Source: Isoetes taiwanensis (taxonomy: Eukaryota > Streptophyta > Lycopodiopsida > Isoetales > Isoetaceae). Taken from it: a stretch of DNA of 64,000 nucleotides. The stretch lies in contig JAJEKV010000055.1 of NCBI GenBank assembly GCA_021234155.1, positions 124,001-188,000 on the forward strand, given 5' to 3'. The notes beneath the pieces were generated by a model, which made no database searches, was not told where the DNA came from, and worked only from the letters and a program-made list of their open reading frames with translations. The position numbers and the translations under genes are program-made. Positions 44,533 through 51,504 of this stretch are shown piece by piece. How positions within the stretch are numbered: the stretch's first letter is position 1; each line of letters starts with the position of its first letter.

Positions 44533-44784
44533 GCTCAGAAATGGTGCACTCTAGATGTACGCATTAGTACATCCATTTGAATACATCACGAAATCATAGG
44601 AAAACCTTAGTGAAAAGTGTACAAAAACACAAACAAAATCCCCTGTTATTATGCTACATATTCGACTCTTCTCTTCTATATCTTTGTGGCTGGTGGCCTC
44701 TGCAATTTCTCAGCGTAGCACTTGTCGCTTCTGGAGAGCACCTAGGGGCAGACCCCCACGGTCGGGCCTAGACTCTCTCTCTCG

Positions 44785-46320
44785 GTTTTTGTGGATTTTA
44801 GCAAGGCTTTTGACATGGTAAACAGGCAAAATTTATGGCAAAGGTTGGTGGACTTGGATATCCCAAAGGAACTCAGACATGCAGTAAACATTCTTTATGA
44901 GAAGGTTCTTGTACAGTTATCATCCCCCTTTGTAGAGATGTGTAGTGAAGTGGTGGAAAGTAACATGGGAGTGAAGCAGGGGTGTCCTCTGTCACCCACC
45001 CTGTTTGGCCTTTTTATAGACCAGCTTGAAAGTTGGATAAGGGCACATGGAGGAGATGGTACGCCTTTGCATGGGTATATACTTATGCTTTTGTTGTATG
45101 CGGATGATGTGGTGCTACTATCGCGAAGCATACAAGGGCTTCAAAGACACTTAGATGTGCTTGAAAATTTCTGTAACGCTAAAGGCATGCAGGTAAATCT
45201 GGATAAGACCAAAGTTGTGGTCTTTGGGGCGAACAAAACAGACCATGTCCATGTCTCCTTTAAGGGTAAACAAGTGGAAGTTGTGGAGAATTATAAATAC
45301 TTGGGGCTGATTGTAGACAAGAGCCCTAATTGGAATCAAGCAGTTGAACACAGAGTAAATGCTGGACTAAAAGCTCTCTATGCTATGCAGAGGAAGTGTG
45401 TGAACGCTGACATTTGGAACTTTGAGATGAAACGCATGCTCTATAAAGTCCTTGTTCAGACGGTACTGCTTTATGGTTGCGAAGTGTGGGGGCCGGGCCT
45501 TGCCAATGATAGTTGGAGAAAGGTGAAAAAGATACAAAAAAAATTCTTTCACACTGAGCTAGGGACGAAGATGCAAACGCCATACGACATGATGCTTGTG
45601 GAGTGTGGAATGATGTCCTTAGAAGCCGAAGCAATGTGTAGACTTTTGCGCTATGTATGTAAAGTCAAATATGGTATGCCAAGCAATAGCCTACCGAGAC
45701 TTGCTATGGAGGAAACCAGAGAGAAGGGTTGGTATGCAGATATTGGCAGGTGGCTTACGAGGTGGGGGATGAACATCCAGGAATTACAGATGCACAAAGA
45801 AGATATTGAGGGGTGGGTTCGAAAGAGCTTCCTCGACAAGTCGTGGAGCGTACCAGCGGTAAAGAAAGAATACTATAGGACCCAGATAAATCCTGCAATG
45901 CAGACACCACACTATCTTGCGGAACAGATATCAGTGAAACATAGACAAACAATTGCTAGAATACGGCTAAGTTCACGCAGACTCAGTGAGGAGATCGGAA
46001 GATGGGCGGATATTGCACATAATCTTAGGCACTGCAAGGTCTGTACTGAAGGAGTGGTGGAGGATGAGGCCCATGTCCTACTTCGGTGTCACGCTTATTC
46101 TGAGGTAAGAGCCAAACATGGGATTGATGCTGTCTCTTTGGATGGGTTTTTCCGGTATCCAGGATCAGTTATAGGGGAGTGCATTGTTGATATCCTCAAC
46201 CTAAGGGATGAATGTTTGAAAAAACAAAAGATAGAAGAGGTAGAGATAGAAGAGCCCAGTGTGTTATTCTCAGAAGACGCACTGGATGATCTGTTTTACA
46301 ACTTTGAATGTATTTTGTAA
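44785..46320 (+). pseudogene. LINE A reverse transcriptase, C-terminal two thirds
   Basis: The open frame of about 511 codons has no start of its own because of 5' truncation. Motif A is FVDFSKAFDMV. GVKQGCPLSPTLF (motif B) and LLLYADDVVLL (motif C, 45097-45108 for YADD) are intact. QVNLDKTKVVVFG and YKYLGLIVD follow. The C-terminus has a CCHC-type finger, CKVCTEGVVEDEAHVLLRC. The frame is clean to its stop, so truncation rather than decay killed this copy. Confidence 0.92.
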
Positions 46321-46328
46321 TGTCTCAT

Positions 46329-46342
46329 AGGCCTGTCGGTCT
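46329..46342 (+). other. LINE A 3' stem-loop
   Basis: AGGCC-TGTC-GGTCT forms a five-pair stem with one G-U pair. Equivalent stems lie at 50858-50872 (element B) and 51378-51391 (element C), each shortly before the ATTTC tail. Such 3' stems are recognised by RT in some LINE families, and that role is inferred here. Confidence 0.5.
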
Positions 46343-46379
46343 CGTAGACGAAAATAAAATTTCATTTCATTTCATTTCA

Positions 46380-46522
46380 TTTCTCTCTCTCTCTCTCTCT
46401 CTCTCTCTCTCTCTCTCTCTCTCTCTCTCTCTCTCTCTCTCTCTCTCTCTCTCTCTCTCTCTCTCTCTCTCTCTCTCTCTCTCTCTCTCTCTCTCTCTCT
46501 CTCTCTCTCTCTCTCTCTCTCT
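46380..46522 (+). repeat. (TC)n microsatellite between LINE A and LINE B
   Basis: About 70 TC units directly follow the (ATTTC)4 tail of LINE A and directly precede the first base of LINE B. Confidence 0.98.
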
Positions 46523-48340: not shown

Positions 48341-50713
48341 TGTTATGGATGATGGGATTGAATCTGATCATGTCCCAATACTCCTGGTTCTACCAGCTTT
48401 AGCACATAAAGCAACACATACAAAGCACATGCCGAGAATAAGATATGATTACAAACAGGCCGAACACTTTAGAAAGGATACTGAGCATGCTATTGCAAAC
48501 ATGTGTTGGCCTGATGATGCTCCTACCTTATCTGATGCCATTGCCTCGATGTTAGTGGAATCTGCCAGCAGATGTTTTGTCCCACAACGCATTATTAAGG
48601 GATTAAAATGCAATGCATGGTATGATGGGGACTGTAAAGAATTGAAAAAGAGTTTTCTAAGGGCAAAAGGAGAGTTAGTAAAATTAATAAGGAAGAAGAA
48701 ACGTGCATATCTCTTTAAGAGACAAGAGCAGCTCGTCCAAGAATACCTCAAAGAGCCAAAAAAATTCTGGAATAGGATGAAAAAGGAAAAAGCAAATGAT
48801 GTAGCCATTACTGCGCAGGAGCTATGGCAACATGTACATAATTTGTATCATGTAGCAGGCGTAGGTGAAGATATAAGGGGCAAATCAGATCTGTCCATAA
48901 CTATGGAGGACGTTGAGGATGGAATCAAAAGATTATCAAATGGTAAGGCGAGAGACATACAGGATCTTGGGGCTGAATTGCTGAAATGGGCAAGCAAAGA
49001 ACTATATGTAGGAGTGGCGAAATTACTCAACTTGGTGCTTAAACAAGGCTTTCCGCTCTCATGGCAGACTAACAGGATTGTACCTCTTTGGAAAGGTGGT
49101 GACCCTACAATAGCCAATAATTATCGTACCTTGATGATTAGTAGCTTATTCTCTAAATTATTTGCCACTATTATAGAGAAGAAACTAAGCCAATGGCGGA
49201 AGAGAAACATATCAGATCTGAAACTCAGGCAGGATTCCGTGCTCATAGATCCACAACAGATCACCTTGTTACATTGAAGGCGATCATGGATTCGGTTAAG
49301 GGTAAGAAGAAGCCAGTTTACATTCTTTTTGTAGATTTTAAAAAGGCATTTCATAAGATATCCAGAGATAAATTATGGAGACGGATGGAGAAATTACAGA
49401 TACCTGTTGATCTTAGGGAAGCGGTAAGAACATTATATGAAAAAGTTCTTGTGCAGTTATCATTTCCCTTTTCATTAGATGCTCCTGAGACAATCTTAAG
49501 TAATATCGGAGTTAAACAGGGATGCCCTTTATCTCCTACGCTGTTCAGACTATTCATCGATAGTCTGGACGAATGGCTTACTGAGAATGGAGGAGATGGT
49601 ACGGTTTTGCATGATTATGTGGTAAGATTGCTAATGTATGCTGATGATGTGGTCATTTTTGCGCGTACTCCTGAACAAATGCAGAAACACATAGATGCAT
49701 TAGCTTCCTTTTGTGATCATACCGATATGCAGGTGAACCTTGAGAAAACAAAGGTTATGGCAGTTGGGATTCTTAGGCAGACATGCTTTAAGTTTAATGG
49801 GGCTGAAATTCAGACTTGTGAATCCTATAAATACCTTGGGCTGGAAATCCACCGAAACCATAGATGGAACACATGCATAGCACAGAGGATCGAAGGTGGG
49901 CTTAAAGCCTTGTATAATATGCAAAGCATAAGCAGACGAATTCATTTGTGGTCTTGGGAAATGAAAATTAAGCTTTTCTTTGTGTTAGTGCAGACTGTAG
50001 TGCTTTATGGCTGTGAAGTATGGGGACCAAGTCTGCCTAAAGGATTATGGGAGGATATAGAACAAGTATTGAAAAAGTTTTTGAGACAGGAGATAGGAGC
50101 TAAAATGCAAACTCCATTTCCCATGCTGTTAGCTGAATGTGGCTTGATGCCGATGGAAGGTGAAGCAATGGTCAGGTGTATCCGATATGTGAGAAAGTTG
50201 AAAAAACAAACAGATGCTCGGATTCCATATAATGCCATGATGTCTAGTCTTGAGCGGGGATGGTTTGCTGACACAGTGTCTTGGCTAAGAAGATGGGACA
50301 TTGCATTGGAAGCTGCACTATCGTATGATGGTGATATCAGACAATGGGTGAAAAAGAAGGTAATAGATAAATTATGGCAGAATCCACCAACCAAGATGTG
50401 TTTGTATAGATTGAATATGAATTCTAATCTAATGCAGGCTAAGCATCTACAGGAGAACATATCTATAGGTAAGAGGCATGCTATCAGCCGGCTTCGTCTC
50501 AGCTCACATAGGCTGGGCGTGGAAGCTGGGCGCTGGAGTAACTTACCCAGAGAATGCAGAACCTGCAAGGTTTGTGGAGGTGCAGAGTTAGAGGATGAGC
50601 GTCACTATATGCCCTGCATACGAGCTACTGAGGGCTCAATACGGCGTCAAAGTAGAGAATCTATTCTAGTTATTTGCTTTAGATGCAAATGTAGTGGGTG
50701 CTTTCATTATTGA
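48341..50713 (+). pseudogene. LINE B reverse transcriptase
   Basis: The first part (48345-49277) contains SDHVPILL and then the RT N-terminal block LSNGKARDIQDLGAELLKW, RIVPLWKGGDP. A frameshift near 49200-49270 leads into a 506-codon frame with RSETQAGFRAHRSTTDHLV, FVDFKKAFHKI (motif A), GVKQGCPLSPTLF (motif B) and LLMYADDVVIF (motif C, 49637-49648). The C-terminal finger is CKVCGGAELEDERHYMPC. It is longer than the copy in element A because the 5' end is retained. The catalytic residues are intact but the reading frame is not. Confidence 0.92.
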
Positions 50714-50902
50714 TATTTTAAAATGTAGAGAAACATATGTAGAGAGAAATATGTCTTTTGATATTGATAACATTGATGATTATGAGGAGAGAGCTGAGGA
50801 AGTCCTACATGAGGATTTCTCAGAAGAAATTATGGAATTGCACTTTTATCGTCTTATAGACCTATGAGGTCTCCGCAGACGTAATAACATTTCATTTCAT
50901 TT

Positions 50903-51021
50903 CATTCTCTCTCTCTCTCTCTCTCTCTCTCTCTCTCTCTCTCTCTCTCTCTCTCTCTCTCTCTCTCTCTCTCTCTCTCTCTCTCTCTCTCTCTCTCTCT
51001 CTCTCTCTCTCTCTCTCTCTC
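50903..51021 (+). repeat. (TC)n microsatellite between LINE B and LINE C
   Basis: About 58 TC units between the ATTTC tail of B and the first base of truncated element C. Confidence 0.98.
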
Positions 51022-51424
51022 GCACCATCTTGGTGTGGAGGTAGGGAGATGGGCGGACATCGCTCATGATCTTAGACATTGTAACTTGTGTAGTGACGGT
51101 GTGGTGGAGGATGAGGCTCATATCTTACTTTGTTGCCGTGCTTATTCAGACTTAAGAGTCATACATGGGATCAGTGCTACCTCCCTTGAGGAGTTCTTTC
51201 GGTACCCAGGGGCATCCATTGGGGGATATATTGTTGACATTCTTAAACATAGAGATGCTTGTTTGAAAAATCGGAAAGTGCGAGAGATTGAGATAGAGGA
51301 GCCCGGTGTGTTACTCTCGTAAGACGACTTTGGATGACTTGTTTTATAATTTTGAATGTAACTTGTAAGCGTCTCATAGACACGGTGGTCTCAAGGCGGA
51401 ATAATAGATTTCATTTCATTTCTC
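51022..51424 (+). mobile_element. Non-LTR retrotransposon C, 5'-truncated fragment
   Basis: Only the last ~95 codons remain: [59 protein letters not shown]. They align closely to the C-terminus of LINE A, with the CCHC finger. The fragment starts at the (TC)n boundary and ends in the stem-loop (51378-51391), (ATTTC)2-3 and (TC)n. Confidence 0.92.
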
Positions 51425-51504
51425 TCTCTCTTCTCTCTCTCTCTCTCTCTCTCTCTCTCTCTCTCTCTCTCTCTCTCTCTCTCTCTCTCTCTCTCTCTCT
51501 CTCT
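51420..51504 (+). repeat. (TC)n microsatellite after LINE C
   Basis: About 40 TC units with one extra T near 51431, ending in TTATCTCTCTATAATA. Confidence 0.97.

Follow-up and report, generated by a model that had tools for sequence, protein, structure and literature searches.

Among long interspersed nuclear elements (LINEs), Kibi and Koshi of fish, reportedly described by Kojima and Fujiwara in 2004, are said to be microsatellite-specific members of the Tx1 clade with TC and TTC targets. The Togen families are (TG)n-specific and related to NeSL according to the available part of PMC4640811, and KibiFr1 is named in the accessible section of PMC6515669. Site-specific LINEs with an apurinic/apyrimidinic (AP)-like endonuclease are placed only in the Tx1 and R1 clades in the excerpts of PMC13295347 consulted, and the same two clades are given in those of PMC4640811. 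In flowering plants, 224 of the 233 L1 families listed in the consulted portion of PMC3747384 end in (A)n. Our search of the open-access literature, with most subscription journals and Repbase Reports outside its scope, found no plant LINE with microsatellite specificity. TC-targeting LINEs are known from fish, and the habit seems new for plants. Here we describe three LINEs, termed A, B and C, in a stretch of 64,000 nucleotides from Isoetes taiwanensis (GenBank assembly GCA_021234155.1, contig JAJEKV010000055.1, positions 124,001 to 188,000 of the forward strand), which is called the window below. We are highly confident that they represent a diverse plant group of AP-endonuclease-type LINEs that insert into pre-existing (TC)n microsatellites. 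TC is regarded as the pre-existing target because it is found at both ends of most copies and at paralogous empty sites, and because different subfamilies occupy the same tract.

The sequence was read at 44000-52500. The three LINEs lie head to tail on the + strand, at 44785-51407, with TC tracts between them, and the parts of the array are as follows.

44707..44772, + strand: end of a dispersed sequence adjoining the left TC run (blastn, 78 columns, E 1.8e-9; the alignment extends into the TC)
44773..44784, + strand: (CT)n run of about 5.5 units, interpreted as the part of A's TC target left on its 5' side
44785..46358, + strand: element A, a 5'-truncated LINE with reverse transcriptase (RT) to a C-terminal Cys/His motif (by eye) and 3' untranslated region (UTR)
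46320..46350, + strand: two-tier 3' RNA hairpin of element A (-10 kcal/mol, z -2.66)
46359..46383, + strand: (ATTTC)5 tail of element A (tandem-repeat listing)
46382..46522, + strand: (TC)70, read as target DNA between A and B (tandem-repeat listing)
46523..50888, + strand: element B, a LINE copy read as full-length, its frames broken by stops and shifts
46639..47586, + strand: open reading frame 1 (ORF1) region of element B, open over 46639-47214 and again over 47218-47586
47599..48054, + strand: AP-endonuclease-type piece of element B (Exo_endo_phos, E 3.1e-4, scoring 21 bits where the curated cut-off is 24.5)
49157..50710, + strand: RT and C-terminal region of element B (RVT_1, E 2.1e-33)
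50848..50886, + strand: two-tier 3' RNA hairpin of element B (-11.9 kcal/mol, z -2.50)
50889..50905, + strand: (ATTTC)n tail of element B
50906..51021, + strand: (TC)58, read as target DNA between B and C (tandem-repeat listing)
51022..51407, + strand: element C, a heavily 5'-truncated LINE, 3' end only
51408..51422, + strand: (ATTTC)3 tail of element C
51421..51514, + strand: (TC)n at the right edge of the array (tandem-repeat listing)

Element A follows (CT)5-6, B follows (TC)70 and C follows (TC)58, and each ends in (ATTTC)n leading into (TC)n. This layout, already given in the preliminary description, is confirmed by the sequence and the tandem repeats, as is its statement that the truncated copies A and C both start at the TC edge. 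The (CT)5 it placed at 44773-44783, left of A, is also present, with a corrected size of about 5.5 units and an end at 44784. Apart from the three tracts of the array, no (TC) or (GA) run of at least 6 units occurs in the window, the 57,100 bp outside 44701-51600 containing none, so the TC beside A, B and C is not a matter of chance. The open frame of element A spans 44785-46320. An end 77% similar to 44707..44772 also adjoins a (TC)59 tract at another place in the genome (L091; such labels denote fetched places), and in L024 a truncated copy resembling C precedes the LINE (by eye). Like other full-length copies, element B begins at TC with an ORF1-like region, which is why it was taken to be full-length; its first ~550 bp, which do not align to those copies, speak against this reading.

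Relatives were sampled from the same 1.66 Gb assembly as the window. For B, the 20 best places outside the window were taken, which are 87-95% identical (an extra row at 98% is a displaced piece of L028). A TC run was counted as 5' if its end lay no more than 40 bp from the LINE or, in full-length copies, if it fell in the 160 bp around the start, and as 3' if its start lay no more than 60 bp away. At least 6 TC units were found on the 5' side of 15 of 19 assessable B relatives (L022 is cut by a contig end) and on the 3' side of 16 of 19 (L028 is interrupted there). Both sides had at least 6 units in 12 of the 18 copies assessable at both ends, two of which, L014 and L026, have related flanks and were treated as a single locus. 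The earlier expectation that most copies are flanked by TC on both sides is thus borne out among the sampled B relatives, and the sample was not one of copies mostly in non-TC DNA or of empty sites without TC. Among the A relatives (20 of 40 non-window matches fetched), 15 of 20 had at least 6 units within 150 bp of the tail, and four 5' ends showed (TC)64 (L069), (TC)8 (L070), about 2 units (L071) and none (L072). More diverged relatives, with 68-70% DNA identity to the 3' end of B (9 of 19 fetched), had at least 15 units in seven of nine cases. In L061, L066 and L068 another LINE begins right where the TC run stops, and in L064 the next LINE follows after hardly any TC; all four have protein matches, so head-to-tail arrays recur.

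Empty sites carry TC where the LINE is missing. L099 is identical to the filled site L027 over 90 bp on the left and 99% identical over 150 bp on the right; it reads TTAAGTAAG(CT)34(AC)14GGTTGGCC, with the CT uninterrupted, and L027 reads TTAAGTAAG(CT)46TA-LINE-(ATTTC)n(TC)7(AC)nAGGTTGGCC. Since L099 has one extra CT run on the left and diverges from L027 beyond ~100 bp, it is a paralogue. The empty sites L097 and L098 align to L009 (93% identity) across 150 bp of left and 34 bp of right flank, and their pyrimidine stretch contains (TC)7. For the array itself, a search for an allelic empty site gave only the flank pieces themselves among the 40 candidates scored out of 2153.

Single flank types were also found to be used repeatedly. 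The 5' flank type of L016 occurs again in six fetched places: L114 contains part of the RT of another subfamily (protein match), L112 and L113 have ORF1-like starts (open frames, no protein match), L115 has a short insert between two TC tracts, and L110 and L111 have no LINE. The flank of L023 recurs in L101, where an ORF1-like frame with no protein match starts with ATGGCGCACAAG directly after (CT)58. A dispersed repeat with arms GCATGTGGCC.../...GGTTTCCCACATG is a frequent insertion target; both arms are present in L104, with (TC)57 between them, and L109 has the right arm with (TC)52. In eight places with the right arm, LINE 3' ends precede it in L103, L107 and L108 (protein matches), only hairpin-like ends in L105 and L106, and none in L102, L104 and L109.

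The TC tracts might instead have been made by the elements, through 3' tail extension or slippage during reverse transcription, rather than serving as their target. Such an origin would agree with the run of most 3' ends from (ATTTC)n to (TC)n, and with the length of LINE-adjacent tracts, often 40-90 units versus only (TC)7 at the L009 empty sites. However, the 5'-truncated copies have TC right at the truncation point, and the (CT)34 of the empty site L099 largely refutes the idea. Long tracts lead to the same conclusion. Tracts of at least 17 units starting after A or G number 2594 in the genome, a pattern that excludes tracts starting ATTTC(TC)n, and 20 of them were sampled (taken from the first listed, on contigs C1-C57, some skipped). 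Ten of the 20 had no same-strand LINE, SINE-like end (SINE, short interspersed nuclear element) or U6 copy beside them; SINE-like 3' ends stood beside three and a U6 copy beside one, and divergent LINEs may be missed. We therefore consider a self-made origin of the TC quite improbable. A weaker form of it, in which insertion lengthens a pre-existing TC tract, may hold.

Several observations weigh against insertion into pre-existing TC as the general rule. Among the B relatives, the 5' exceptions are L018 and L025 (4 units each), L019 and L015 (none), the TC runs of L015 lying ~250-400 bp upstream, outside the counted range; on the 3' side they are L009 (5 units), L025 (3) and L010 (none). Little TC was also found in the A relatives L031 (5 units), L034 (3), L029 (2), L038 (2) and L037 (0), and in the diverged relatives L063 (3 units) and L064 (2). 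One copy that is 97-98% identical to A, fetched as its two ends L029 and L072, has no TC run on either side; TTGCC is common to both flanks, a possible 5-bp target duplication, and the copy is probably a recent off-target event. L096, an empty site of L010 (89% across the site), carries only the short, imperfect TC-rich CCTCTCTTCTCTTCAC. All empty sites found are paralogues rather than demonstrated alleles, and similarity ends near the junction in L099 (~100 bp on the left) and L097/L098 (34 bp on the right). Neither a LINE nor a long TC tract is present in the 11 related places read for the L014/L026 site; these paralogues, 64-79% identical in the matches that span the site, were set aside as empty sites because they are too diverged to show the order of TC and insertion. 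Finally, a same-strand LINE protein match lay within 450 bp of only 6 of the 20 sampled long tracts, and L077, one of the ten tracts without a same-strand element, has an opposite-strand LINE match. The specificity for TC is strong, not absolute.

The 3' ends of the LINEs share a structure. All eight folded LINE 3' ends formed a two-tier hairpin (z -1.7 to -4.4), with an outer stem CGUCU/AGACG and an inner stem GACC/GGUC or similar; the one folded SINE-like 3' end has the outer stem, with a z of only -1.3, which is not significant. Single folds were used, and a MAFFT alignment of 14 sequences of these 3' ends was rejected because it misplaced the stems. The motif GACGNAATAA-(0-8)-ATTTCATTTC occurs 275 times on the + strand, 174 times with (TC)6 within 25 bp, and a reversed-pattern control gave no occurrence; reverse-strand counts of gapped patterns over-count, and the + strand only was counted. 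As a contrast, an end whose hairpin is similar but whose tail is (ATTCT)n gave 1115 first-look candidates in the genome; it is LINE-like and could be a LINE or a SINE. None of eight fetched copies had at least 6 TC units in the ~65 bp after the tail, and one had about 3-4. In L017 an (ATTCT)n tail is followed by (TC)92, and a related 3' end lies at (TC)61 in L095, showing that related ends vary in their association with TC.

These ends bear on a second alternative, a generic preference in which microsatellites act as open-chromatin landing pads and no sequence is recognized (Kejnovsky 2013, as cited in PMC12477314). According to the consulted part of PMC12477314, which agrees with this view, microsatellites often surround various elements of plants and humans. 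However, the TC strand is the LINE sense strand in the TC-flanked junctions read for B, A and the diverged copies, and neither the eight (ATTCT)n-tailed ends nor the other mobile elements of the window have a TC run of at least 6 units. We thus consider it very improbable. An equally small chance is left to the view that the arrays stem from a few LINE-TC units multiplied by recombination or by segmental duplication. The L014 and L026 flanks are 92-96% alike for more than 1 kb, which shows that duplication does occur, but truncation point, subfamily and mostly also the flanks vary between copies, and different elements occupy the same flank type.

The coding content supports a LINE of the AP-endonuclease type as the inserting element. 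The frame of element A matches RVT_1 (E 7.7e-25), and genome searches find its relatives across the assembly. In the B relative L010, ORF1-like, Exo_endo_phos and RT frames follow in succession. An AP-like endonuclease is thus present upstream of the RT, its Exo_endo_phos matches in L010 (E 1e-4) and B both being 2-4 bits under the curated cut-off; the best RVT_1 matches among L010 and window B have E 2.5e-35 and 2.1e-33. Both 5' truncation and an own 3' tail are found in these LINEs. The RT regions of A and L010 share 46% protein identity. Judged by sequence, A and B are separate families of one diverse group, so of the single TC-targeting family first proposed, the targeting is upheld by flanks and empty sites and the single family is not.

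Placement in a clade is less clear. RT matches in the PDB include R2 (best E 5.2e-23) and human L1 ORF2p or RT core (best E about 1e-18), so they were not taken as decisive. A zf-RVT domain and/or RNase H downstream of the RT are usual features of plant L1 elements; the 816-amino-acid frame of L010 has no Pfam match to either at E up to 1. The tails are (ATTTC)n and not the poly(A) of the plant L1 clade. The ORF1 region of B has no significant Pfam match, and an ORF1 match to Transposase_22 is weak (E 2.4). The second ORF1 piece was modelled as b-a-b-b-a-b followed by a-b-b, with low confidence (mean predicted local distance difference test score, pLDDT, 59), and L1 ORF1p is absent among the 50 listed Foldseek matches of this model; with such a model and no usable match, identification of ORF1 by fold was abandoned.

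A route of insertion into the TC can be proposed. The endonuclease, with a predicted specificity for the tract, would nick the GA strand inside it, and the (GA)n end thus released would base-pair with (AUUUC)n(UC), the pyrimidine-rich terminus of the element RNA; this RNA may be selected through its conserved two-tier 3' hairpin. Target-primed reverse transcription would then proceed to completion or to truncation. Each insertion would leave TC on both sides and so keep two landing sites, which may give rise to arrays like A-B-C, away from genes.

A broader proposal, which we hold only tentatively and judge somewhat doubtful, is that a guild of retroelements shares the TC target, comprising several LINE subfamilies with RT identity as low as ~46%, two or more families of SINE-like elements and, now and then, a small RNA, and that the LINEs have shed their 5' UTR, using the TC as landing site and as promoter and leader, with each insertion renewing the site. 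In L080 and L084, a short SINE-like element lies between two TC tracts, with a tRNA-like box B, GGTCTCGTGTTCGAACC and GGTCTCGAGTTTGAGACC (by eye), and an end of the form ..GACGTAAA.. or ..GACGTTAAAATAC..; Rfam gave no tRNA match at these elements. SINE-like elements were also seen at the 5' flanks of L073, L021 and L024, with TC on both sides or 3' and with GACGTAAAATAC-type 3' ends. In L094, a U6 copy (84 bits) ends at (TC)24. U6 as a regular passenger of TC is not supported, as 0 of 20 further copies, picked from 48 listed and mostly from those with lower scores, end at TC. The U6 small nuclear RNA copies L116, L117, L124, L126, L127 and L135 look fused 3' to LINE- or SINE-like tails (by eye), which looks like a sign of template switching.

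As for the promoter or leader, 12 full-length starts were read, and seven of them place an ATG no more than 9 nt from the TC, at 0 nt in L028 and L101, 2 nt in L010 and in the downstream element of L020, 3 nt in L113, 8 nt in L112 and 9 nt in L073; the frame is open over the 30-40 codons read in all seven except L073. This suggests that the upstream TC tract may supply a leader or promoter, as far as the position of start codons can indicate. The other five starts (L009, L018, L020, L024 and window B) lack an ATG this close and count against it; L018 sits in the dispersed repeat with only short TC, and B has no ATG within its first 40 bp.

Other mobile elements were noted. The window has two long frames at 6346-10124, the second with a weak RVT_1 match (E 2.8e-5, below the cut-off) and with motifs, FRYIDD and YKAHKRDYR, reminiscent of Penelope-like elements. 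Genes of Copia-type long terminal repeat (LTR) retrotransposons (rve, zf-CCHC, Pol_BBD, RVT_2) are found at 94-2009 and 36807-42376, none beside a TC run of at least 6 units. Inside the A-family 3' end of L031 (C920:400900-401600), a ~360-bp insert with inverted ends (GGGTGAAAGCATGTTAGGGTGT) is flanked by GTCT on both sides and is DNA-transposon-like. PF00504 gave 66 matches in the assembly, one of which, L074, is an LHCII-type protein resembling those of land plants. LHC matches on small contigs (such as C186, C211, C68 and C311) repeat the pattern of large contigs, suggesting that the assembly may hold alternative haplotypes.

If these LINEs do lie outside Tx1 and R1, target specificity would have arisen in them independently of the other LINEs with an AP endonuclease. 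A diverse and numerous target-specific plant group would allow tests of how microsatellite targeting arises and how a nuclease gains it, and the same group would let one test whether a microsatellite can replace a promoter. TC-targeting LINEs would also account for part of the genome's long TC tracts and LINE arrays.

Compared with known systems, the LINEs described here resemble Kibi and Koshi in having an AP-type endonuclease and a microsatellite target, reportedly also TC for Kibi; those elements have animal hosts, and the likeness is drawn from endonuclease type and target. Togen elements are likewise microsatellite-specific LINEs, but they differ in target and hosts, and NeSL has a restriction-like endonuclease according to the available part of PMC4640811, whereas Exo_endo_phos is found here. 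In the portion of PMC3747384 consulted, plant L1 elements also have ORF1 before the endonuclease-RT ORF, and the stringent 3' ends of one maize/sorghum lineage resemble the hairpin described here; the present LINEs differ from plant L1 in their (ATTTC)n ends, their TC target and their lack of a zf-RVT or RNase H match. Celine, a centromeric LINE of poplar, is another plant LINE with a strong target preference, but it prefers centromeric (CENH3) chromatin and not a microsatellite, as given in the accessible part of PMC11288735. In the SINE/LINE pairs of Chlamydomonas, the SINEs share the 3' end of the partner LINE according to the same portion of PMC3747384, and a similar sharing was seen here by eye; unlike those pairs, the LINEs and SINE-like elements of I. 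taiwanensis also appear to have a microsatellite target in common.

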